Shown here: positions 16,351-35,737 of the stretch, piece after piece | Layout: each line of letters opens with the position of its first letter | Position numbering within the stretch: position 1 is the stretch's first letter | DNA from: a virus | IMG/VR virus record: IMGVR_UViG_3300044800_000256 | Location: 1 to 41,441 of that record | Strand: one strand, 5' to 3' | DNA length: 41,441 bases | Notes under the pieces: generated by a model | What the model was told of the DNA's origin: nothing | The model's input: only the letters and a program-made list of their open reading frames with translations | The model's database searches: none | Position numbers and translations under genes: made by a program

Positions 16351-17187
16351 ATGAAACACATTGTCTGTTTCAGCGGAGGTAAAGATTCAACGGCTCTGAT
16401 TCTCTGGGCAAGAGAAAATCTGTCGGAATTTACGACTGTGTTTTGCGATACTGGCTGGGAACATCCAATTACCTATGCCTACGTTGAAGAGATCAATCAA
16501 ACGGTTTTGAATGGCGCTCTTGTCACACTTAAGAGCGAAAAGTATTCCGATGGCTTTGTACAACTAATCACTGACCGAAAAATGATTCCCGGTGTGCATT
16601 CGCGGTTTTGCACTCAGGAATTGAAAATTTTTCCGCTGCATCGCTATTTTGAATCTCTGGATGACGAGGTGACCAGTTATCAGGGTATTCGTGCCGATGA
16701 ATCCTATTCCAGATCCAGGTTGAGCGAGACGGAATGGCTTAATGATGCAGGTGGCTACTGGATCAAACGGCCTCTGTTGCACTGGTCTGCAAAACAATGT
16801 TTCGCTATGATGGCGAAGTACAATATCCATCCAAATCCACTTTATCTTATGGGAGCAACGAGAGTTGGCTGTTGGCCTTGCATCATGACCGGTTTGGGAG
16901 AATTGAAACGTGCACTCGGCTTCTTTCCCGAGCTGAAAACCCGTTTGATTGAACTGGAGAACCATGCCAACGAAGCTGCGAACGATCCAGAAAATTATCG
17001 CACATGGTTTCGGTCCGACAAGATTCCATCGCGCTTCTGTTCAAAATCCGTTATCACCAAAGACGGTCGTACGGTTCCCATTCCAACTTGCGCAGATGTT
17101 TTTCGCTATATAGAAAGTGTTGACGAGGATCAGATTCCACTGTTTCCGGCCCGTTCCTGTATGTCGGTCTACAATCTCTGCGAATGA
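16351..17187 (+). CDS. PAPS reductase-like PP-loop protein
   Basis: This 278-aa protein has a PP-loop ATP-binding motif SGGKDSTALILWA at residues 7-19, then VFCDTGWEHP, the second core strand of adenine-nucleotide alpha-hydrolases of the PAPS reductase family. A later GCWPCIMTG (CxxC) and RFCTQELK provide cysteines seen in the phage/DndC-like branch, which may hold an iron-sulfur cluster. Phage members of this superfamily are common and of uncertain function; sulfur chemistry for DNA or RNA modification is a possibility. GGAG lies upstream of ATG 16351. Confidence 0.75.
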   Translation: MKHIVCFSGGKDSTALILWARENLSEFTTVFCDTGWEHPITYAYVEEINQTVLNGALVTLKSEKYSDGFVQLITDRKMIPGVHSRFCTQELKIFPLHRYFESLDDEVTSYQGIRADESYSRSRLSETEWLNDAGGYWIKRPLLHWSAKQCFAMMAKYNIHPNPLYLMGATRVGCWPCIMTGLGELKRALGFFPELKTRLIELENHANEAANDPENYRTWFRSDKIPSRFCSKSVITKDGRTVPIPTCADVFRYIESVDEDQIPLFPARSCMSVYNLCE

Positions 17188-17497: not shown

Positions 17498-20400
17498 ATG
17501 TATAGCGAACGGATTGTATTACGCAATCTGGACGAATTCGCAGCCCGCGAAGGCTGGATGCCCGTTTACCATTCTCTGGAACAGGTGCAGGAATTCAAGC
17601 AGTACATTGATTCTCTGGTTAAGATCGAGAGCAACTCCCGGTCTTCTTATGTCACGTTGCAACGTCCCATCACGCAGAAACGTCAAAAGGAAATCTGGCG
17701 CTGGATCGAGAACGAGCAGGCACTTTGTGGCTTGGACTCCGGTTATTTTGAAAGTCGCTATGCCTGGGTCTGCGACGAAAAAGGCCAGATCTTTAAATTC
17801 CAAAATCGATTGTCCCAGAAAATCTTTGATGGAGTTATTGCTGGCTTTGACGAAAAGCAGGTCTCCATCGAACTGCTGATTATCAAGGCGCGACAGGTTG
17901 GCGTCACAACAAAAACTGCGCTTAAATTTCTTCATCGTCTGCTCTTCGTTCCGCATACTCAGGCCGTGATGGCTTCCGTGCAATCAGATAAGTCGGAATT
18001 GATCGGACGCATTCTGGACACAGCCTATAATCGCTGCCCCTGGTGGCTGGTGCCGCGTCGTCTGCCAAAAGGTGCCTATGACAACGGTTCGGTTCTCTCT
18101 ATTCAATCTGGTATGCAGGCAACCGGCATTGCACAGGGATGGACGCCAACGTGCCTGGTACCGGGTACACCTGTACGCGTTGCTAATGGTGGTGTAAAAG
18201 CCATTGAAGATCTTGTGCTTGGCGACCGGGTTCTGACCCATGATGGTCGATTGGCAGCAGTAAAGTGTTCCTTTGAAACCTCGCGTCATGGTGAACCAAC
18301 ACGAATACTTAAACTGTGGGGATGCTATCTGCCGCTTGAAACAACTCTCGACCATCGTGTTTGGACTCCTGACGGTTGGTGCGAAGCAGAAGATTTAGGC
18401 GTAGGCGATTTTGTGCGTTATCCAGTCCGTGAAATCCGCGCTGAAAACGATGGGGAACCATTACAAAAAATGCTGCGCGGAAAGATTGATGCAGCGCATG
18501 CGATTGAATTTGAACTAACGTATTCGCCAGCAGTTGCCTATCTTGCCGGGCTTTATCTTGCTGAAGGATCATGCCATGAAAGCGGAATAGGAAAACTCAA
18601 CAAAAAGCCATATTTGTCGGAAGTAACTTTCACCGTGCATCGTCGTGAAGCTGCACGTACTGAAACAGCAATCAGAGCAGTGTTAGGCGAAGACCAGCAT
18701 GTACACACAAAAAACCACGGTGAAAACGGTTCACAGGTGTGCGTTTCCTGCGCATGGTTGGCACGCTGGTTAGCAGGAAACTTTGGTCGTAAATACGACA
18801 AGCATGTACCGGATTGGATTTGGACAGTGGGCCGCGACTTTTGCCTTTATCTTTTGAAAGGCTATCTCGATGGCGATGGCCATTGCGAAAAAAACTCAAA
18901 TCACGTCATTGCTCCATGTATCTGCGAGGCTATCACACTTCAGATGCGCGATCTGGTAGCTTCATTGGGCTTTGGCTGGGCTTCTATCTACCACCAGGCA
19001 GCTATGCAATCACCATGGGGTGGTAAAAAGCGCGAAACCTGGAAACTTGTAATGGTGGGGATGTGTGGCTATCGCTATCGAATGGCATTCAATCTTGAAC
19101 ATATTCCATCCCAAGAAAAAGCTCGTCACTGGCATTACAGCGAAGATGGATCAGCTATTGATGTAAAGATTGAAAAAGTTGATGAAGGATTTAGCGAATC
19201 GTTCTATGACGTGGAAGTGGATGATGTAGCGCATTCTTTCACAACATTGCAGTGCTCTGTCCATAACTGTATTCATGTATCGGAGCTGGCGGATATTCCC
19301 AAGCCGGAAAAGGTAATTGAAGAAGGTCTGTTGCGCGCCACGCACTCATCGCGCAATCTGTTCATGGTCTTTGAGGGAACGGGAGGCGGCAATACCGGTT
19401 GGCTCGCAAATACCTGGCGGTCGGCAAAGGCTGATTGGCCGAAAGGACAATCCCGGCTGTGTCCGGTCTTTATTCCCTGGGCAATGGTCCCGGATCTGTA
19501 TCCGGAACCAGACTGGGTGCGTAAATTTCCTGTGCCTGCTGAATTTATGAGGAAGCGGCAGGAAGTAACACGGAAGCATGTACAGCGTTGCGAACTCTAC
19601 ATCCGCAATACTACCTATCTGGCCAACGTAGTGGGAGCAGATTGGCGGATGCCGATTGAACAGCAATGGTTCTGGGAATTCAACTATCTTCAGGCTTGCA
19701 AAAATCACACACAAAAAATCTGGTTAGCACAGATGGCTGCCGACGACTTTGAAGCTCTGACGGGAGTTCACGACAGCGTTTTTGACCTTGAAACAATTCA
19801 GGAAATTGAGAACCATGTTTATGAAGTGGAAAGCGATAATAAAGAAAGAAAGAAACCGGTTCAGGCGTATGCGATTACCGGCGATTCCATTGATGACGGC
19901 TTTGAGCCGGATGATTCAATTATCGACTATGACAAAGACCGCATTCGGATTCTTTGGAATTCAGATCGCGGTCAGCAATACAAATGGGTGCTGATTCCAC
20001 TTTTGCCGGTCAACGAAGAAATCGAGACGGAGACCTTTGACAAGTTTCTGGTGTACGAAGAACCCAAAGCCGGTTATAGCTACAGTTGCGGGATCGACAC
20101 GGCTGATGGACTTGGCAAGGAAGATGAAGACAGAACCTGTGTATCAATGACACGGAATCGATTTGGCGATGAATTTGATTATCAAGTTGCCGAGTTGACA
20201 TCAAACCGAATCAACTCTGCGCAGATTGTAGGATTTGCGGCTTGCATGGCAGCCTGGTATGGAGAAAATACACAGGATTCGCGCGGCGTGAAATTTTGCG
20301 TGGAACAAATTGGTCGGCCCGGTGATACCTGCCAGCATCAACTGAAGTTGATGGGATTCCATTGGCATCATGTTCCACGGCGTTATGACAGCAAAAAAAT

Positions 20401-20764
20401 CAAAGACGATTCAGGAAAAAAACAAGGCTGGTATTCCAATGTGTGGAGCGTGCCCATTTTGATGACGCGCTTTACGGAAGCAGTTAATGGTGGCTGGTAT
20501 CGACCGTCATCGAAATGGTTGATTGAGGAATTGAAGACGCTGGAACGTCATGCGGCGGCTGGCAGAATATCCAAAATGGAACATCGCAGTGGACAGCATG
20601 ATGATCGCGTACGTGCTGCAGCACAATCGTTTTTTACTGCACATGATTTTGATATTCTTGCGGACAGGGCACAAAAGCGGTACGCTTTGCCACAAGAAAA
20701 AAATCCGCCGCTGATTATGAAATCATGTTCCGTGAATGAGGTTTCTGTTGGAGGAATGAATTGA
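17498..20764 (+). CDS. terL: terminase large subunit with in-frame intein
   Basis: The 1088-aa precursor has the terminase ATPase: Walker A-like KARQVGVTTKT (residues 130-140) and, after the intein, IHVSELADI (Walker B-like) and MVFEGTGGG (coupling motif). The nuclease domain includes YSCGIDTADGLGKEDEDRTC and SGQHDDRVRAAAQSF, which supply conserved Asp residues. Residues 219-590 are an intein, so the mature protein is about 716 aa. The start ATG 17498 follows GGAGATCA. It drives DNA packaging through the portal encoded downstream. Confidence 0.9.
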   Translation: MYSERIVLRNLDEFAAREGWMPVYHSLEQVQEFKQYIDSLVKIESNSRSSYVTLQRPITQKRQKEIWRWIENEQALCGLDSGYFESRYAWVCDEKGQIFKFQNRLSQKIFDGVIAGFDEKQVSIELLIIKARQVGVTTKTALKFLHRLLFVPHTQAVMASVQSDKSELIGRILDTAYNRCPWWLVPRRLPKGAYDNGSVLSIQSGMQATGIAQGWTPTCLVPGTPVRVANGGVKAIEDLVLGDRVLTHDGRLAAVKCSFETSRHGEPTRILKLWGCYLPLETTLDHRVWTPDGWCEAEDLGVGDFVRYPVREIRAENDGEPLQKMLRGKIDAAHAIEFELTYSPAVAYLAGLYLAEGSCHESGIGKLNKKPYLSEVTFTVHRREAARTETAIRAVLGEDQHVHTKNHGENGSQVCVSCAWLARWLAGNFGRKYDKHVPDWIWTVGRDFCLYLLKGYLDGDGHCEKNSNHVIAPCICEAITLQMRDLVASLGFGWASIYHQAAMQSPWGGKKRETWKLVMVGMCGYRYRMAFNLEHIPSQEKARHWHYSEDGSAIDVKIEKVDEGFSESFYDVEVDDVAHSFTTLQCSVHNCIHVSELADIPKPEKVIEEGLLRATHSSRNLFMVFEGTGGGNTGWLANTWRSAKADWPKGQSRLCPVFIPWAMVPDLYPEPDWVRKFPVPAEFMRKRQEVTRKHVQRCELYIRNTTYLANVVGADWRMPIEQQWFWEFNYLQACKNHTQKIWLAQMAADDFEALTGVHDSVFDLETIQEIENHVYEVESDNKERKKPVQAYAITGDSIDDGFEPDDSIIDYDKDRIRILWNSDRGQQYKWVLIPLLPVNEEIETETFDKFLVYEEPKAGYSYSCGIDTADGLGKEDEDRTCVSMTRNRFGDEFDYQVAELTSNRINSAQIVGFAACMAAWYGENTQDSRGVKFCVEQIGRPGDTCQHQLKLMGFHWHHVPRRYDSKKIKDDSGKKQGWYSNVWSVPILMTRFTEAVNGGWYRPSSKWLIEELKTLERHAAAGRISKMEHRSGQHDDRVRAAAQSFFTAHDFDILADRAQKRYALPQEKNPPLIMKSCSVNEVSVGGMN
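18152..19267 (+). mobile_element. LAGLIDADG intein inside terminase
   Basis: The 372-aa insert begins with Cys (CLVPGTPVRVANGGVKAIED, block A), has a T-x2-H type block B (ETTLDHRVWTPDG), two LAGLIDADG-type helices (LAGLYLAEGS and LLKGYLDGDGH), block F FYDVEVDDVAHSFTT, and ends in SVHN, followed by Cys as the +1 extein residue. All residues needed for class 1 splicing are visible (C1, block B T/H, terminal H-N, C+1). The insertion point is just before the Walker B-like segment, a conserved site typical of inteins. Both homing motifs keep the acidic residues, so the endonuclease may be active. Confidence 0.92.
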
Positions 20765-21150
20765 ATGCGCAGATGACAAAAAAGATTGTTTATTGGTACG
20801 ACGGAACAACGGGGGAGATCCGTATGGGACTTCCCGAACGCTATCCGGCTCCCTATGGATTTGAAAAGATTGTTTGTAACTCTGCGCACGAGGCGGAAGT
20901 ATGGTCAGAACGCATGCGTAAGCAGGAAACAGTCAAGATTCAGATGGAAGATGAGCAGCGGGAAATGATTGAAGGTCCGATCCGCGCCAATCTGCGTAGC
21001 CATATTCTTCATCAGATGACGAATGCCAGAAACAATTTGAATCGGGAATTTCTGCGTCGTCATCTGGAGTCGTACGACAAACGACCGGACAGAACGAAGA
21101 TGAACAGAACCAGCTATCTTCACAATGAAGGATATGAACAAGGACATTGA
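20761..21150 (+). CDS. 129-aa hypothetical protein after terminase
   Basis: The frame starts with TTG 20761, 5 nt after GGAGG and overlapping the terL stop; an ATG at 20773 is an alternative. The product begins with KKIVYWYDGTTGEIRMGLPE, a strand-rich segment with PERYPAPYGFEKIVC, then a long basic helix (SHILHQMTNARNNLNREFLR). The pattern is seen in phage proteins near terminase and portal, but no function is known. It overlaps the next frame's upstream region by 4 nt. Confidence 0.6.
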   Translation: MNAQMTKKIVYWYDGTTGEIRMGLPERYPAPYGFEKIVCNSAHEAEVWSERMRKQETVKIQMEDEQREMIEGPIRANLRSHILHQMTNARNNLNREFLRRHLESYDKRPDRTKMNRTSYLHNEGYEQGH

Positions 21151-21161
21151 ACGGGGAAACG

Positions 21162-21488
21162 ATGAATAGACGTGGATTTTTAAAAATATTCGGTGTTGGT
21201 ACTGCATCGCTTGCTGTACCAGCTACTGCATATGCAGCGTCGACAATCTCTAAAAACAAGACTATCGATCCCGTTTTGTTGGAACGTGTTTGTGATGGTG
21301 GAAGATCGCATATGACTGCGGAAGAATGGCAACGTTATGATGAAGATTTTCCATCGCATTACCGTGGATGTGGAACACGGTTTCGCTGGTATCTTGGCAC
21401 AAAGTGCATGTGCCCAACATGCATGCGCGAGTATCTATATACTTTCGAACAATTAAAAAATAAGGAGTTTTTTGTCAGTATTGAATAA
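21162..21488 (+). CDS. Tat-signal small zinc protein
   Basis: GGGG lies 7-8 nt before ATG 21162. The 108-aa product starts MNRRGFLKIFGVGTASLAVP, a near-perfect twin-arginine signal (R-R-x-F-L-K plus a weakly hydrophobic stretch and ATAYA-type cleavage site). The mature part carries CGTRFRWYLGTKCMCPTCMREY, a C...C-x-C-x2-C metal site. A Tat-exported protein between terminase and portal is unusual. The Tat pathway exports folded, often cofactor-loaded proteins. Function unknown. Confidence 0.6.
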   Translation: MNRRGFLKIFGVGTASLAVPATAYAASTISKNKTIDPVLLERVCDGGRSHMTAEEWQRYDEDFPSHYRGCGTRFRWYLGTKCMCPTCMREYLYTFEQLKNKEFFVSIE

Positions 21489-25745: not shown

Positions 25746-26978
25746 GTGCCTACCGATCCGCTTTATAACGAAATTGACGCGAGTAACCTGGAAAGCGTCC
25801 GCAAGAACGTAGTATTCAACAACCTGTTTGTGGATACTCCGTTTCAGGCCAAGCTGCGCAGGGCCGGCGTGTGGGATGAATTCCTCGGCGGCGCTGGCAT
25901 GATGGAAGGCATTCTGTACGGACGTACGCAGGGTGCCGCAGTGAATCCCGGTCAGACCGTGACCGTGACTCGTCAACAGATCAATACCGGCATCAAGTTC
26001 CTGCCGAAGGCGTATGCCACCTGGTATCCGCTGGACGATTGGGAAATGGATGATGGTTCCGGTACTGGCGGTGTGATCAACTCCGGTCCGTCGCGGATTG
26101 TGGATGAGTATCAGCTCTACATGGAAGCCATGGTGATGACCATGAATACCATGCAGGAGATGGATTCATTCCGTCATGGCCAGCCTTCTTCAGCGACGGT
26201 ACAGGACAACCGCATCAAGACCATCAACGGTCTGGATGAAGCGTTGAACAACGGTATCGACCCCTCTGTTTTTGGCAATATCTACACCAACTATGGTGGT
26301 CAGGCGCGTAACGGCAATATCGGCACAGCACTGAATACGACACCACTTTATCTGGGCACTGCGACTGGCGCTACCGGCCAGATCGATTTTGCTGCTTTGA
26401 TGCAGTTGTGGAGTCAGTGCAAGGTTGCTGGTGGCAATCCGACGCTGGGTATTACCAACGTATTCGGGTTCAAAGCCATTGCCATTGCTCTTGATGCGCA
26501 ACGCCGCGATGTCAGCAATACAAAGCACGACATCAAGTGGGATGGATTTAACTTCAACGGCGTGGATATCTATGCCGACCCGCTGGCACCTTCGGCTCAG
26601 GCTCAGAACTACATCGAACTGGCCCCGGCGAACGGTGCTGCTGGTAACACCAATCTGGCAGACGGTGTTGGATCGAGTACGACTACGGTGGCCTTTACGA
26701 CTCCGCAGTTCACGAAAAACGGTGCGAACGTTACGGTTTCGCCTACTGGTTCCGGATTGCCTTCGAGTACCACGATTCAGCCTTCGGAAGTTCTTTACTT
26801 TCTGGAACCGGAAAGCTTCAAGATTCGGCCAACAAACAAGAAGGGTTGGAACTTTGGTCTGCGCCGGGCACCGATGCCGAACAACGTCTCGATCGATGCT
26901 TTGTTCATGCGGTTGGGCACGAATCTATACAACACCCAACCCAGGCACAATGATTATGCGTTTGGATTTACTGCATAA
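25746..26978 (+). CDS. major capsid protein
   Basis: This 410-aa protein starts with GTG 25746 (AAGGTGA upstream) and reads MPTDPLYNEIDASNLESVRK. It follows scaffold, matching gene order, and has the size and alternating beta-rich composition of HK97-fold major capsid proteins, with a middle insertion (QARNGNIGTALNTTPLYLG) and PNNVSIDALFMRLGTNLYNT near the C-terminus. No cleavage protease gene is visible. It would form the icosahedral head. Its mRNA begins with leader E3, only 21 bp upstream. Confidence 0.75.
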   Translation: MPTDPLYNEIDASNLESVRKNVVFNNLFVDTPFQAKLRRAGVWDEFLGGAGMMEGILYGRTQGAAVNPGQTVTVTRQQINTGIKFLPKAYATWYPLDDWEMDDGSGTGGVINSGPSRIVDEYQLYMEAMVMTMNTMQEMDSFRHGQPSSATVQDNRIKTINGLDEALNNGIDPSVFGNIYTNYGGQARNGNIGTALNTTPLYLGTATGATGQIDFAALMQLWSQCKVAGGNPTLGITNVFGFKAIAIALDAQRRDVSNTKHDIKWDGFNFNGVDIYADPLAPSAQAQNYIELAPANGAAGNTNLADGVGSSTTTVAFTTPQFTKNGANVTVSPTGSGLPSSTTIQPSEVLYFLEPESFKIRPTNKKGWNFGLRRAPMPNNVSIDALFMRLGTNLYNTQPRHNDYAFGFTA

Positions 26979-27004: not shown

Positions 27005-27550
27005 ATGAAGGGGACGCACAAATCGGGTGCAAATCTAGCGCTTCAAGGTCAAGCTGCAGTGTGGCAAGTGGCATCGCAGCTTGCTTTGCGCGGACACGTT
27101 CCCTTTTTCCCTGGCATTGATCAAGGCTCCGATTTGTGGCTTGAAAACGGACTTCGGCTACAGATCAAATGCGCAACTCTTCGAGTGATCAAAGGACAGA
27201 ACTATCCAGAAGGTGCATATGGTTTTCAGTTGCGCAGAAACGTTTGGATGAGCAACGAGAAAAAGACAAGAAGGTCATCCTTACGACCCTATTCCGAAGT
27301 GGCGGATTTTTTTGTTCTTTGGGGAATTGATGAAAACAGATTTTTCATATTACCAACGATTCATGCAGGTCAGGCTATTTGGTTTGCTCCGAAGTTTTAT
27401 CACAGCAAGTCAAACAACCGCAAAGTATTTGGTTTAATCACAGAGCAACGTCTTGCAGATATGGAAGACCGGTGGGACTTGCTTGACGTAAGCACAACGA
27501 GCAATGCGCTAATTGAGAGCGCGGACGCAGCAGTTAAGGAGACAGTCTAA
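27005..27550 (+). CDS. PD-(D/E)XK nuclease-like protein
   Basis: AGGAG lies upstream; ATG 27005 is preferred over TTG 26981. The product has VPFFPGIDQGSDLWLENGLR followed by LQIKCATLRV, giving a D...x-Q-x-K core like that of PD-(D/E)XK nucleases, similar to the group I intron-associated and restriction-like families. Conserved-looking segments GFQLRRNVW and SEVADFFVLWGIDENRFFIL follow. An isolated nuclease inserted between capsid and decoration-like genes fits a free-standing homing endonuclease or a defence/exclusion nuclease. The next gene overlaps its stop by 1 nt. Confidence 0.55.
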   Translation: MKGTHKSGANLALQGQAAVWQVASQLALRGHVPFFPGIDQGSDLWLENGLRLQIKCATLRVIKGQNYPEGAYGFQLRRNVWMSNEKKTRRSSLRPYSEVADFFVLWGIDENRFFILPTIHAGQAIWFAPKFYHSKSNNRKVFGLITEQRLADMEDRWDLLDVSTTSNALIESADAAVKETV

Positions 27551-28356
27551 TGCCATTTCAACCAATTGTACCTACATGGTTAGCGTGGAATAACGGAAAC
27601 TTCACTTCTCCGACTGCGCTTACGGATCTCCGCACCGGACAGCCTTTTGCGGCTGGTGGCCTGAATCTTGGCGATTTTTTTGATGCCACCAACCAGGAAG
27701 CATTTCAGGGATCTTACACGACCAACGGCACTCTGTTTGCTGGCCGGTATCGCTTTGTGCATGTCGACTCCGGCGCAACAGCAGCCTATGTGAAAACAGG
27801 AACGATTGGCTATCTGCGTTCTGGAAGCACTGTGCAATCGGTTGTCATTACCAGTGCCGGTTCTGGTCAGACTGCCGGGACTTATCAGGTTGCTTCCTCT
27901 GGTGGCGGCGGTAACGGTGCGTTGATTCAGGTGGTAGTTGGTTCCGGTGGCACGGTAACTTCAGCGACCGTATTGCAGGGCGGCTATGGCTTCACTTCCT
28001 TGCCTACGTTCACTTTGGTGACCGGAGGCTCTGTCGGAACCGTGGCTGCACAGTTGAACACTTCGCCAAACGAAGTGACCAGCTATGACCAGGCTCCTGT
28101 TCAAACCGGTCGTGCAGTTGTCTATCTGAATTCCATCACTCCGGGTAATTACGGATTCATTCAGGAACTCGGAACGGCAACATGCCTGGCGAATGGAACC
28201 ATTACGGCTGGAAATTTTGTCAATTCCGCCAGCACTGGTCTCGTCACAAGTGGATCGACAACGTATGCTTTGGCGACCATTGGAACAGCCATTGATGCAG
28301 GCAGTGCCAACGATCTGTTTAAGGTGCAGTTGAATTTGCCAGTAGTCCAGGATTAA
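27550..28356 (+). CDS. 268-aa beta-rich head decoration-like protein
   Basis: The start overlaps the preceding stop (TAATG). The protein begins MPFQPIVPTWLAWNNGNFTS and is dominated by Gly, Ser and Thr with short strands, as in capsid-stabilising or decoration proteins; a Gly-rich repeat with SAGSGQTAGTYQVASSGGGG lies in the middle. Position after the capsid suggests an outer capsid or connector component. Sequence family not recognised, so function is from context. Confidence 0.5.
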   Translation: MPFQPIVPTWLAWNNGNFTSPTALTDLRTGQPFAAGGLNLGDFFDATNQEAFQGSYTTNGTLFAGRYRFVHVDSGATAAYVKTGTIGYLRSGSTVQSVVITSAGSGQTAGTYQVASSGGGGNGALIQVVVGSGGTVTSATVLQGGYGFTSLPTFTLVTGGSVGTVAAQLNTSPNEVTSYDQAPVQTGRAVVYLNSITPGNYGFIQELGTATCLANGTITAGNFVNSASTGLVTSGSTTYALATIGTAIDAGSANDLFKVQLNLPVVQD

Positions 28357-30191: not shown

Positions 30192-31433
30192 ATGAGCGGA
30201 CAAGTTCAGGTTGGAAATTATGGATCTGCCGCAGTAGCGACAAGTTTAGCTGGCGGTACAACTGGGGCTGAACCTTATCAGTCTGCAGCTGGTACAACAT
30301 CATTTGCGTATCCCAACAGCTCGGCATCGTTGTTTTATTTAGATGGAACCAGCACGGACAGTTATACCCCAAATGGAACCGCATTGTTGCCATATCAAAC
30401 ATTGGCTCAATTGACTTCTGGTGTGGCAAGCGTAACGGGTCCATACGTTATCTTTGTTGTGCCCACACCTTCGGCATATACCTATACCGGCAATGTGAAT
30501 TTTCCTGCTTATCCTTTGACCATTATTGGGAATGGAGCGAGTTGGGCATTTACTGGAAACCTGACGGCAAATTCCAATTTTATTATTCAAAATCTGTATA
30601 CCTCCACTACGGGAAGTCTGACTTATACATCGACTTCATCTGCAGAATCAATACGTCTTGGCGGATCACTGACTTGTACGGGTGGAATTTTTACCAGCGG
30701 CTATGAACATTTCTTTGACATGAGCATTTTGTCAAATACGCTTATTACGCTGAATGTCGGCGCGACGCCGGTATTCACCAATGTGGTCGGAACGCCCCGC
30801 TGGAAAAGTGCAACAAGTTCTACTGCATCTACGGTGCTCACAATCATTGACAGTGAAGCATTGGCTACCGGAGCTTACACCAATATAGATATGAGCAATG
30901 GCGGACTTGTTATTATCCGCGGTCTTATCGCGACAAACAATAACTCCGTGGTTAATATCAACCTGTCTGGTAGCAGCGCAGTAAGCGCAACAGTATTTAA
31001 CGCCTTGACAGGTATTGAAGCCGGACAGGTAACCTGCGGATCGTCGTACACAAATGTTGCTCCCGATGGGTACATGCCACTGCTCAGTGGCACTGCGCTG
31101 CATTTCAGCGGAGCACTTGAACTTGTGCAATATAGTCTCACTGCTCAGTCGTCCAGCATTTCTGCCACTACGCTCTACACAACGTTGGCTGCTGGGGTCT
31201 ATCGCGTAACAGCATCTGTACAGACTACTACGGCGGGTTCAGCAGGCACTGTGCTGGTTACGGTAAAGGGAACTGCGTCGGGCACAACGGATTTAACAAC
31301 TTTGGGTTCAACACAAAGCGTTTCGACAACTTTCTATGTAGCCGCATCAACTGTATTGCAATACACAACAACGGTTGTAAGTGATACAGCAGGCATTTAT
31401 CGCGTCGATGCGTTTGTGGAAAGACTTGGGTGA
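30192..31433 (+). CDS. 413-aa fibre/spike-like protein
   Basis: The product begins MSGQVQVGNYGSAAVATSLA and is dominated by Ser, Thr, Gly and Val in regularly spaced short strands (TIIGNGASWAFTGNLTANSN), the look of a parallel beta-helix or fibre shaft. The C-terminal region has a globular beta part (ALELVQYSLTAQSSSISATT). It starts 5 nt after the preceding gene. Likely tail spike or appendage involved in host contact, inferred from composition and position. Confidence 0.55.
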   Translation: MSGQVQVGNYGSAAVATSLAGGTTGAEPYQSAAGTTSFAYPNSSASLFYLDGTSTDSYTPNGTALLPYQTLAQLTSGVASVTGPYVIFVVPTPSAYTYTGNVNFPAYPLTIIGNGASWAFTGNLTANSNFIIQNLYTSTTGSLTYTSTSSAESIRLGGSLTCTGGIFTSGYEHFFDMSILSNTLITLNVGATPVFTNVVGTPRWKSATSSTASTVLTIIDSEALATGAYTNIDMSNGGLVIIRGLIATNNNSVVNINLSGSSAVSATVFNALTGIEAGQVTCGSSYTNVAPDGYMPLLSGTALHFSGALELVQYSLTAQSSSISATTLYTTLAAGVYRVTASVQTTTAGSAGTVLVTVKGTASGTTDLTTLGSTQSVSTTFYVAASTVLQYTTTVVSDTAGIYRVDAFVERLG

Positions 31434-31441
31434 GGTGCAAA

Positions 31442-33382
31442 ATGAAAAAGATTGCATGGCTCCTGTTCTTATCTGCAGCGCCGATTTTATTCTCTATTGC
31501 GGCAGTCGCACAGATCGGAGCGATTACGAACTATTGCAATCTTGGCGCAGCCCAAGCAAAAACTTCTGGATTGCAATCAAGCAATTATCAGCAAGGCATT
31601 ATTCCAAGCTGCAAAGTAACTGTTTATCTAACTCAAACAGCAACGCTTGCTACAATTTATGCCGATTCTTCCGAAACACCATTGACAAATCCATTTACTG
31701 CAACAACGGTAGGTCAATGGCTTTTTTTTGCTGCGGTTAATCAGGGCTACGATGTTGTACTTAGTGGAGGAGTATCTCCAAATATTTATCCCGCGTCAGT
31801 TACTTTGACAGATTTGTATCCTTCAACGCAAGTTATTGTTGGAACTGTTTTGTGGGGGGAAATTGGTGGGACTCTAAACAACCAGACAGATTTGCAAGCA
31901 GCGCTTAATGCCAAATTAAGTCTGACTGGTGGCACAATGACTGGAAATTTAATTTTACCTGGAATTACAATTACAGGTTTGACCGGTTATTTATATGCTA
32001 ATGGTAGTAGCGCTGTAACAGCCAGTTCGATCATTCCTGTTGCTGCACTTTCTTACGACTATACGACAGTGAATGGCCAGATATGTGCGCTTGGTTCGAC
32101 GTGCACAATACCGTCTTCAGCAGCAAATATTACGGTAGGTACGACTACCGTGACCAATGGAACATCGAATTATATACTCTACGATAATTCCGGGGTATTG
32201 GGGAATCTTGCTATTATTCCAAATTCAGCAGGTGGAACGGGTGTCAACACGGCGGCTAGTACGGGCGTTCCTGTAATTGCATCAGGATCGTGGGGCATCT
32301 ATAATACCGCCTGTTCTGGAGCAGGATACGCACTCAATTACAGTACGGGAGCGCTAAGTTGCAACTCGGCAATTAATGCTGCGACGTTGGAAACCTATAC
32401 CTGGGAAACGCCAAAAGCGATTGGCAGCACAACACCAAATACGGGTGCTTTTACACAGGTATCCGTTGGCGGATTGATTAGTGGCAACTATGTACTTGCT
32501 GGTCCGCAAAGCACTGTGACTACCGGATGGATATTTGACTGGACATCTCCAACAACTACAGCAACCAGCATCCTAAGCCAATACAGCGGATGTCTGGAGG
32601 TCACCAGTGGAGTAATCAGCGGCACCGGATCAGCTTGCGGAAGTGGATCGGGAGGAGTAACCAGTTTTTCCGCTCCGTCAGCATCATGGCCGAGTTGGCT
32701 GGTACCCACTGTAACGAACAGCACAACGACGCCCAGTCTTGCTGTGACAGCGAGTGTAATCCCCAACTCGGCTTTGGCTAACTCAGCCACAACGGTTAAC
32801 GGTCAGACTTGCACACTGGGTTCGAGTTGCACTGTAACAACGGTAGCCAGTCTTACTGTCGGTACTACGACCGTGACCAGCGGCACGAGTGGTTATATTT
32901 TGTATGACAATGCTGGTGTACTCGGGAACCTTGCTACTACGGGAAACGGTTATGTGGTTTTGAGTTCATCTCCTTCAATTAGTAGCCCGACTGTAACTTC
33001 TTCATTTACGGCGACGGGACTGGTGACGAATGCCGATTTGGTAAATTCATCCACTACCGTAAACAGCGTTACCTGCACGCTGGGTGGAACCTGTACCGTA
33101 ACCGCAGCCAGCCTGAAGTATCAATATGTTTTTCCTTCAAGCCAAGCGCTCGGAGGGGTCACTTCTGGAACTAATTGCCAAACTATCGATACTTCAACAA
33201 CTACCTCGATCACATCTCCAGTTGTGGTAGCTTCCTGGGGAAACCTGGCCGGCATATCTCTCGATGTAATTATAACTGCGGGTGTAGATAATTCTGGCAC
33301 TGTGGTACTGGATTTTTGTAACGTTTTATCTGGTTCCACGACAATCCCTTCCAGTGTACCGGTTAACTACGCCATTTTTTAA
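31442..33382 (+). CDS. 646-aa fibre-like protein with signal peptide
   Basis: GAGGTG precedes ATG 31442. The N-terminus MKKIAWLLFLSAAPILFSIA followed by AVAQ is a clear Sec signal peptide with an AxA-type cleavage site. The rest is Thr/Ser/Gly-rich with repeated modules of the form TVGTTTVTSGTSGYILYDNA and CTLGSSCTV, plus SFSAPSASWPSWLVPTVTNS. It shares these modules with the 750-aa protein downstream. A fibre-like protein with a secretion signal is unusual, because virion fibres normally assemble in the cytoplasm. Confidence 0.6.
   Translation: MKKIAWLLFLSAAPILFSIAAVAQIGAITNYCNLGAAQAKTSGLQSSNYQQGIIPSCKVTVYLTQTATLATIYADSSETPLTNPFTATTVGQWLFFAAVNQGYDVVLSGGVSPNIYPASVTLTDLYPSTQVIVGTVLWGEIGGTLNNQTDLQAALNAKLSLTGGTMTGNLILPGITITGLTGYLYANGSSAVTASSIIPVAALSYDYTTVNGQICALGSTCTIPSSAANITVGTTTVTNGTSNYILYDNSGVLGNLAIIPNSAGGTGVNTAASTGVPVIASGSWGIYNTACSGAGYALNYSTGALSCNSAINAATLETYTWETPKAIGSTTPNTGAFTQVSVGGLISGNYVLAGPQSTVTTGWIFDWTSPTTTATSILSQYSGCLEVTSGVISGTGSACGSGSGGVTSFSAPSASWPSWLVPTVTNSTTTPSLAVTASVIPNSALANSATTVNGQTCTLGSSCTVTTVASLTVGTTTVTSGTSGYILYDNAGVLGNLATTGNGYVVLSSSPSISSPTVTSSFTATGLVTNADLVNSSTTVNSVTCTLGGTCTVTAASLKYQYVFPSSQALGGVTSGTNCQTIDTSTTTSITSPVVVASWGNLAGISLDVIITAGVDNSGTVVLDFCNVLSGSTTIPSSVPVNYAIF
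32861..32945 (+). repeat. fibre DNA repeat, copy 1
   Basis: About 85 bp coding the GTTTVTSGTSGYILYDNAGV module, nearly identical to 34553-34637 and 35024-35107 in the neighbouring gene. Long exact blocks favour recombination between the two fibre genes. Confidence 0.7.
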
Positions 33383-33484
33383 GGATCTAAACACGGGAAA
33401 ACTGTCAACAAAACATTTGAGTAATTAACTGAGGAAATCATGATTGGGACTGATAACCGTTGAGATGAGTTACTAAGGAGAAAC

Positions 33485-35737
33485 ATGCGAATCACCAAAA
33501 TTGTCTTGTTCTTTTTGTTTGGTGCTGCAGTGGCAAGCTCCCAAGTCCAAATCACCGGCAGCAAGATTATTATGGGCACGACAACGAGCAATGCCTGCCC
33601 AATCAGTCCATGCTCGATTGCTACGGGTGGAACCGGAGCTACCACTGCAGCTGGAGCGTTGGCGAATCTGGGGGCAGTTCCAGCAGCTGGCGGAACGATA
33701 TCAGGACAACTCGGTTTTGGTTCCAAATCTTATGTTCAAGAGGTAAATGGAGATCTTTGGATCACAGCCAATGCTTACTATGATGGGACAAATTGGCAAA
33801 GAGTGGACATAACCAAAGCATCTTTTGGTTTGCAACTTCAGGGTACGAATAATTTTCCATATGAATCGAATCAGGGTGGTACGCTCTGGGTGGCGAGTGC
33901 TCATGCCAACCCAATTGACAGCACATACGGGTCAACGTATGGATGGAGGATTGGTTGGACTATTCAAAGTACACTTACTATGGTCTTAGGTGGTGCTGGC
34001 GTAGAAATTGATGGTGATGGATCTGTACCCTACGGAAGGTTTTTTCATAACACTATTAGCAGTGTTATTTACACCGGGATTTTGACAAATGAATTTGTTG
34101 ACTTTTCCGGAGTGGACGACGCGACAAAGCCCAGTTGGCTTTCTGGAATTGCGGGAGATAGTTTCCAGACATCCAGAGCTGCCGCTGGTGCTGGCGCTAC
34201 ATGGAATAACTTTTTTAAGATTGACTCCTCTGGAAATCCTTATTTCCCGACAATTGCTCCTTCATCCACTTCTTGTATGCAAATGGACAGCACAGGTAAA
34301 ATTAGTCCCACTGCATCTGCTTGTGGAAGCGGAGGCGGAAGCGGCACAGTTACAAGTTTTGCAGCTCCGTCTGCATCGTGGCCTTCGTGGTTAGTGCCTA
34401 CTGTAACGAACAGCACGACCACTCCCAGTTTGGCAGTTGCGGCATCATCAATACCCAATTCTGCGTTGGCTAATTCGTCAACCACAGTCAATGGGGCGAC
34501 CTGCACACTGGGATCGAGTTGCACGGTAACGGCTTCAGCCAGTCTTACCGTAGGTACTACGACCGTGACCAGTGGCACGAGTGGTTATATTTTGTATGAC
34601 AATGCTGGTGTACTCGGGAATTTTGCCACTACAGGATCGGTAAACGTAGTGATGTCTAATACTCCATTAATAACAACCCCCAATGTGTACGGACTCATGG
34701 ATCTTCTAACACTGCAGGATGCTACTTCCTCTGCCAATTCTAACTCATCAGAGTTGTATATATCGGGTGCTTACTATAATGGCGGATCGCAAGATGATAG
34801 TTGGTCACTGCAAGATGTAGTACACAACACTGGTTCGTCCCCTGCAACTTATCTTACAATTACGCACACTGGTTCCTCGGGCACGGCAATGGTACAGTTG
34901 CCTTTGCTGAGAATAAACGGGATAGCTCCATCGTCCACATCCTGCTTGCAGATAAATACTAGCGGTGATGTAAGTGCCACAGGTACGGCGTGCGGATCTG
35001 GCGGTGGCACGGGCATTACTGTAGGTACTACATCCGTGACCAGTGGCACGAGTGGTTATATTTTGTATGACAATGCTGGTGTACTCGGGAACCTTGCCAC
35101 TACGGGAACGGGAAATGCAGTTCTGGCAAGTGCACCTGTTTTATCAAATGCGTATTTAGGATCCTCCGGGACGGCTACTTCCTCCACCAATTACAGCTCA
35201 ACTGCAGCTTTCTTTGACGGAAGCTATTACAACTCCAGTGCATTGGTTGATCAGTGGGCTATCCAAAACGTGATGGGCACAGGAACGGCACCAACATCCT
35301 CGTTGACATTTTTCCATACTGGCAGCGCTGGGGCGGCCACTGTGGCTTTTCCTTCCATTGCTCTGAATGGCGTGGCCATGAGCAGCGTTCCAAAAATGGT
35401 TTGGTCTGCCAGTATTCCAGTGCTTACGGCAGCAGCAAACGTTCTATCTGCTGACTGGGCACCGTCATCTGCCATCACAATTACTCAGTTTGCAATTTTT
35501 CTAGACACTTCTTCCGTTGGGTGCTCAACAGGACAAACATATGGTATTTATGATGCCACCACCAGCGCATGGCTCGGCACCGTTACGCTTTATAACAGTC
35601 AGGCATCAACCACTCTCGGGCTTACTGCCGCTGTTACGGCAGGAGATGTTCTTTCATTTGGAATTCAAAGTGCAGCAACTGGATGCTCAACACCCCCGGC
35701 AAATGCCAGTGTCTTGGCAGAGTATCGAATGCAGTAG
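33485..35737 (+). CDS. 750-aa fibre-like protein with signal peptide
   Basis: AGGAGAAAC precedes ATG 33485. The N-terminus MRITKIVLFFLFGAAVASSQ is a Sec-type signal peptide. It is followed by IATGGTGATTAAGALANLGA, a phage tail-fibre repeat, and several copies of the TVTSGTSGYILYDNAGVLGN module shared with the previous protein. A beta-sandwich-like C-terminal domain starts near MVWSASIPVLTAAANVLSAD. The 102-bp gap upstream holds no gene. Host-binding or exported role is inferred. Confidence 0.6.
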   Translation: MRITKIVLFFLFGAAVASSQVQITGSKIIMGTTTSNACPISPCSIATGGTGATTAAGALANLGAVPAAGGTISGQLGFGSKSYVQEVNGDLWITANAYYDGTNWQRVDITKASFGLQLQGTNNFPYESNQGGTLWVASAHANPIDSTYGSTYGWRIGWTIQSTLTMVLGGAGVEIDGDGSVPYGRFFHNTISSVIYTGILTNEFVDFSGVDDATKPSWLSGIAGDSFQTSRAAAGAGATWNNFFKIDSSGNPYFPTIAPSSTSCMQMDSTGKISPTASACGSGGGSGTVTSFAAPSASWPSWLVPTVTNSTTTPSLAVAASSIPNSALANSSTTVNGATCTLGSSCTVTASASLTVGTTTVTSGTSGYILYDNAGVLGNFATTGSVNVVMSNTPLITTPNVYGLMDLLTLQDATSSANSNSSELYISGAYYNGGSQDDSWSLQDVVHNTGSSPATYLTITHTGSSGTAMVQLPLLRINGIAPSSTSCLQINTSGDVSATGTACGSGGGTGITVGTTSVTSGTSGYILYDNAGVLGNLATTGTGNAVLASAPVLSNAYLGSSGTATSSTNYSSTAAFFDGSYYNSSALVDQWAIQNVMGTGTAPTSSLTFFHTGSAGAATVAFPSIALNGVAMSSVPKMVWSASIPVLTAAANVLSADWAPSSAITITQFAIFLDTSSVGCSTGQTYGIYDATTSAWLGTVTLYNSQASTTLGLTAAVTAGDVLSFGIQSAATGCSTPPANASVLAEYRMQ
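34553..34637 (+). repeat. fibre DNA repeat, copy 2
   Basis: Same module as at 32861-32945 with a few changes near its end (GGGAATTTTGCC instead of GGGAACCTTGC). Confidence 0.7.
35024..35107 (+). repeat. fibre DNA repeat, copy 3
   Basis: Same module again, differing mainly at its start (ACTACATCCGTG for ACTACGACCGTG). Copies 2 and 3 lie within one gene, so unequal recombination could change fibre length. Confidence 0.7.

Follow-up and report, generated by a model that had tools for sequence, protein, structure and literature searches.

Tailed phages are generally taken to assemble in the cytoplasm, and when a fibre-like gene encodes a signal peptide, its product is usually judged not to belong to the virion. 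The lack of signal peptides in proteins of phage diversity-generating retroelements has been used as support for their phage origin (PMC6199706). Tail fibres are known, as are signal peptides on flavophage lyases, the 'signaling peptides' on the lyases of the Cellulophaga phages Ingeline and Nekkels being remarked on in one sentence (PMC8776804), and our search of the open-access literature found no description of a general pattern beyond that remark. What looks new is the making of fibre clusters as Sec precursors that are built into virions, as proposed here for two fibre-like open reading frames (ORFs), A and B, of IMG/VR virus record IMGVR_UViG_3300044800_000256. This record, 41,441 bases long and called the window below, has the gene set of a tailed phage, in the order terminase, major capsid protein, connector-like protein and then three fibre-like ORFs, U, A and B. 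With a probability of roughly 0.6, A and B are virion receptor-binding fibres or tailspikes that would be made as Sec precursors, exported, cleaved and attached at lysis.

Leader-bearing fibres are found in phages whose virion proteins carry proteomic annotation. In the marine Cellulophaga phages phi19:1, phi10:1 and phi18:3, eleven leader-bearing fibre genes are annotated as virion proteins by their depositors: the four consecutive genes gp101-104 of phi19:1, structural according to experimental tandem mass spectrometry (MS/MS), together with gp91-94 of phi10:1 and gp85-87 of phi18:3, which bear an 'experimental MS/MS proteomics' virion annotation. Ten other structural proteins of phi19:1, identified by MS/MS or virion-listed, possess no leader. 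The gene order and leaders of Ingeline and Nekkels (fibre/pectate-lyase cluster) are as in phi19:1, and the Cellulophaga fibre leaders mostly end ahead of a glutamine, like that of A. In addition, the C-terminal part of phi19:1 gp101 matches tailspike chains in a sequence search of the Protein Data Bank (PDB), while gp102 found no match there. These phages differ from the window phage, as their hosts are Bacteroidota and they belong to several tailed-phage families, but their annotations indicate that leader-bearing fibres can be virion parts.

Closer in lineage are the Tunturi isolates, cultured phages of Acidobacteriota, of which Tunturi 1 is a podovirus (PMC11924767). Tunturi_1 belongs to the same broad lineage as the window phage, whose capsid protein is 31% identical to its counterpart there (the terminase about as much) and 94-99% identical to those of three other viral contigs; related terminases occur in 14 of 16 records tested of the ORF A family, including Tunturi_1, at identities as low as 29-31%. 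Considering this kinship, together with an Acidobacteria metagenome-assembled genome (MAG) as the sole bacterial match of the family in a genome collection, the host is probably an acidobacterium. In the plaque-forming Tunturi_1, the consecutive large fibre/spike genes gp12-gp14 all bear leaders, as do gp12-gp14 of Tunturi_2 and gp111, gp113 and gp114 of Tunturi_4. The gp12 proteins of Tunturi_1 and Tunturi_2 have the leader and the N-terminal domain in common with A, differing from it in their distal modules, and Tunturi gp14 gave no match in the PDB sequence search. The deposited start of Tunturi_4 gp111 (L023:31077) appears too far downstream and that of Tunturi_1 gp14 (L017:15931) lies upstream of the leader; such starts, which may be wrong, would hide signal peptides from routine annotation. 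The paper on these isolates mentions neither signal peptides (by term search) nor virion proteomics (PMC11924767).

Regarding the window itself, a sequence-only reading had claimed Sec signal peptides on both proteins, followed by Gly/Thr/Ser-rich fibre modules, and both observations hold. Leaders were called by a home-made, rule-based scorer of the n-, h- and c-regions, calibrated on 30 kb of Escherichia coli MG1655, where it detected 5/5 exported proteins (scores 8.2-9.5), kept cytosolic proteins at or below 4.9 and wrongly called one protein, the TolA membrane anchor (8.5). The scores of A and B are 9.5 and 10.0, and each has a basic n-region, an uncharged hydrophobic h-region and small residues at -3/-1; of starts placed at internal Met codons in the proteins of these phages, 7 of 1726 reach the 7.4 cut-off. 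The mechanically defined ORF of A opens at GTG 31430, with ATG 31442 the likely start, giving MKKIAWLLFLSAAPILFSIAAVA and, past the predicted cut, QIGAITNYC; for B, MRITKIVLFFLFGAAVASS is followed by QVQIT, and an alternative cut AVA/SS at residue 17 is also possible (a slash marks the cut). With ribosome-binding sites ahead of both leaders and the family conservation given below, A and B are confirmed, as far as a sequence-based call goes, to carry canonical leaders of the Sec/signal peptidase I type.

An N-terminal alignment scan of the viral collection retrieved 46 loci with an A-type N-terminal domain (near-duplicates included, the weakest, L043, scoring 7.35); when the frame is read further upstream, every one of them encodes a leader, nearly always ending directly ahead of a glutamine and mostly with an AxA/Q cleavage site. 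Among 13 sampled members, the leaders have diverged more (39% pairwise identity) than the mature domain (59%), being lower in 71 of 78 pairs, and they still retain the charge, the hydrophobic core and the cleavage motif. Thus, the leaders change faster than the mature domain yet hold their form, as expected of working signal peptides. They are real and under selection, so export is very likely. Over the contigs and the Tunturi phages, 57 of the 95 fibre-like ORFs bear leaders, compared with 4 of the 177 others that reach 250 aa (Fisher 5e-28, a value that counts related and hence non-independent sequences). That the N-termini are hydrophobic by chance, or that the start codons are misplaced, as the reliance on a home-made scorer might suggest, can practically be dismissed in view of that calibration, the 46/46 leader-bearing loci, the 7/1726 false positives and the ribosome-binding sites at the leader starts. 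Glutamine stands at +1 in A, in B only if the cut is ASS/Q, and at the scorer's best site in 34 of the 57 leader-bearing fibres, with a rough count of 11/30 in Acidobacteriota genome pieces. Since the Q-rule, glutamine at +1 after signal peptidase I cleavage, is published for Bacteroidetes (PMC5837995), this residue does not place A or B among its substrates.

The domain that follows the predicted cut in A speaks for a virion role. A homologous domain opens the leaderless tailspikes of proteobacterial phages that infect Klebsiella, Serratia, Erwinia and Escherichia (KA2-1 gp15, the MTx tailspike, the Cronus exopolysaccharide (EPS) depolymerase and Alux-21, respectively), which start directly at the domain, align with A at 28-39% identity, have alanine at the Cys57 position and lack a counterpart of Cys32. 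An AlphaFold model of the domain (pLDDT 84) was compared by Foldseek, in which the best PDB matches, at modest E-values near 1e-3, were the tail complexes of the cyanopodophages Pan3 and Pam1, and phage tailspikes and EPS depolymerases were matched in a viral library. The mature N-terminus of A is then a tailspike N-terminal, virion-side domain, and as the leaderless tailspikes begin at this very domain, cleavage of A would restore a normal tailspike N-terminus. Mature A matched nothing in the PDB by sequence, and neither Pfam nor PHROGs assigned a family to A or B; B is related to A by a middle module, and other phage proteins match only its later parts, so that a tailspike N-terminal domain is assigned to A only.

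The neighbouring U slot offers a comparison. A hidden leader on ORF U (30192) was looked for and none was found, the start being clean. The leaderless forms (the window, L031, L035 and L038) open with MSGQ and then a VG-containing motif, whereas in the leader-bearing relatives of the same slot (L037, L036, L004 and L069) the leader ends HG/Q or NG/Q ahead of the same motif. The contrast is MSG-QVQVGNY against VHG/QIIVGNY; the two part where cleavage is predicted, as though the protein worked in its cleaved state.

The cysteines of the window lineage are also informative. There are 14 in A and 10 in B, in regular close-spaced pairs, and two in the leaderless U. Paired by spacing only, they fall at residues 32-57, 215-221, 291-307, 384-399, 457-463, 545-551 and 579-626 of A and 38-43, 264-280, 340-346, 487-503 and 680-734 of B. 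Leader-bearing fibres contain 1.86 cysteines per 100 aa against 1.14 for the comparison (p = 1.3e-7), and their number is even in 48/57 of them versus 21/38 leaderless fibres. C32 and C57 are both kept in 29 rows of the domain alignment, both lost in two (L049 and L053) and single in one, one row being cut. In L049 and L053, two other cysteines arise elsewhere in the domain (ATIC, SSCF). This pattern fits disulfides formed outside the cytoplasm. Periplasmic O-glycosylation was considered as another reason for export and rejected, because the Bacteroidota-type motif, D[ST][AILVMT], is not enriched, standing mostly at or below the level of shuffled sequences.

Putting these data together, the leader would direct each fibre through the inner membrane via Sec, signal peptidase I would cleave at xxA/Q, and the mature fibre would fold in the periplasm, where paired cysteines could be oxidised. 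At lysis or later, the fibre could dock by its mature N-terminal domain onto a tailed particle that is complete in all other parts. Such late docking is plausible, given that the tailspikes of P22 and the fibres of T4 are able to join otherwise complete particles in vitro. The leaders, their conservation, the tailspike domain of A and the cysteine pairing are read from sequence, and the presence of leader-bearing fibres in virions is taken from depositors' MS/MS annotation of phages that infect a different phylum; that the fibres are exported, cleaved and oxidised, and when and where they attach, we infer.

Several points weigh against this proposal. The N-terminal domain of ORF A has no homologue detected among the Cellulophaga fibres, the deposited MS/MS notes are silent on whether the leader is gone, and exported fibres attached to membrane vesicles might in principle be purified along with the virions. 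The Cellulophaga fibres are mostly cysteine-poor, so disulfides were rejected as a general reason for export, and oxidation would be a consequence or an extra benefit of it rather than a universal cause. Moreover, virion disulfides can form after lysis, and the PhicrAss001 tail has them (PMC10172136); the 14 crAss001 structural-region proteins that were checked all lack a leader, so leaders as a pattern general to Bacteroidota phages were likewise rejected.

Part of the earlier interpretation needs revision. Its export reading stands as far as the leaders are concerned, and its preference for a surface or lysogenic-conversion role, drawn from the view that virion fibres are cytosolic, becomes less likely, being unsupported in the face of the tailspike domain in A and the Cellulophaga annotations. 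The strongest alternative, which we consider unlikely, is that the exported fibres have their main role away from the particle, on the cell surface or released, for example by blocking receptors against superinfection or by preventing progeny from adhering to debris, their virion presence being secondary or contamination. Leaders do imply an extracytoplasmic stage, and exported tailspike-like proteins with non-virion tasks exist, such as Pantoea WceF, a trimeric protein whose beta-helix fold resembles that of tailspikes, which differs from A and B in being encoded by a bacterial chromosome gene, having a twin-arginine (Tat) signal and modifying exopolysaccharide without being part of a virion (PMC7949094). 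However, the mature N-terminus of A retains the tailspike domain, the Cellulophaga fibres bear virion annotations and all three large fibre/spike genes of Tunturi_1 are leader-bearing, leaving little else that could be its receptor-binding protein.

Somewhat less probable still is that the leader is retained, as a hydrophobic tail on a virion protein, an inner-membrane anchor where virions mature or an aid to membrane penetration during infection. Hydrophobic N-termini can anchor, the scorer mistakes the TolA anchor for a leader, and cleavage is not provable from sequence alone; nevertheless, the small -3/-1 residues and the glutamine at +1 are conserved across diverged leaders in which the helix sequence itself is not, the leaderless homologues of ORF U start at the cleavage point and leaderless tailspikes open with the same domain. 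The sequence-only reading had also considered anchoring to the virion by way of a step that involves a membrane; the tailed-phage gene set and the podovirus relative Tunturi 1 (PMC11924767) give no indication of a membrane-containing virion. Lysogenic conversion, in which a prophage would place an adhesin or exclusion protein on the surface of its lysogen, is very improbable: phage-encoded outer-membrane proteins such as lambda Lom offer a precedent (PMC12309495), but the family is nearly absent from bacterial chromosomes, which argues against it (the single locus lies on a 3.7-kb contig of the Acidobacteria MAG, and 1/297 genomes of the phylum is positive), the A and B genes lie within the structural gene run and no integrase was found among the window proteins searched, which were not all of its ORFs.

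Periplasmic precursors for virion fibres might reach further, and it is possible, as a tentative generalization somewhat short of even odds, that tailed phages of at least two diderm host phyla build their virions in two compartments, the capsid and tail in the cytoplasm and the fibres in the periplasm via Sec, joined only when lysis mixes them. If so, fibres could use the folding and oxidation of the envelope, and receptor-binding parts could stay apart from immature particles. Should the fibres of widespread phages of soil and sea prove to be exported first, annotation, the prediction of receptor-binding proteins and models of assembly at lysis would need to change.

Table 1. Coordinates of ORFs A and B, their parts and other features of the window; rows with L-prefixed positions refer to related loci.
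Feature	Position	Strand	Basis or remark
ORF A, 646-aa fibre/tailspike-like protein with Sec signal peptide	31442..33382	+	Homologous leader-bearing N-terminal domain in 46 viral loci and Tunturi_1/2 gp12
Likely ribosome-binding site of ORF A, GAGGTG	31432..31437	+	Sequence, ahead of ATG 31442
Signal peptide of A, 23 residues, predicted cleavage AVA/Q	31442..31510	+	
Mature N-terminal domain of A, homologous to that of leaderless phage tailspikes; conserved C32/C57	31511..31816	+	
300-nt module of A	32637..32936	+	Common to A and B, 78% identity
ORF B, 750-aa fibre-like protein with Sec signal peptide	33485..35737	+	ATG 33485
Shine-Dalgarno of ORF B, AAGGAG	33475..33480	+	Sequence
Signal peptide of B, 19 residues if ASS/Q (17 if AVA/SS)	33485..33541	+	
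300-nt module, B copy	34329..34628	+	78% identical to A copy
ORF U, fibre-like, without leader	30192..31433	+	Directly upstream of A; starts MSGQVQVGNY
Leader-bearing U-slot relatives	L037:4558, L036:4209, L004:4388, L069:4065		
Large terminase with intein-like insert	17498-20764		
Major capsid protein	25746-26978		
Connector-like protein	27550-28356		

Among the other genes of the window, the insert in the terminase (Hint and LAGLIDADG, approximately residues 220-590) is absent from most related terminases, and a phosphoadenosine phosphosulfate reductase-like gene lies at 16351-17187. The ORF at 21147-21488 begins MNRRGFLKIFGVGTASLAVPATAYAAS, a Tat-like signal (Pfam TAT_signal, E 9e-4), beside which Tunturi_3 gp49, beginning MNRRQLFKGAAALVAATVLPLPALAEA, can be set.

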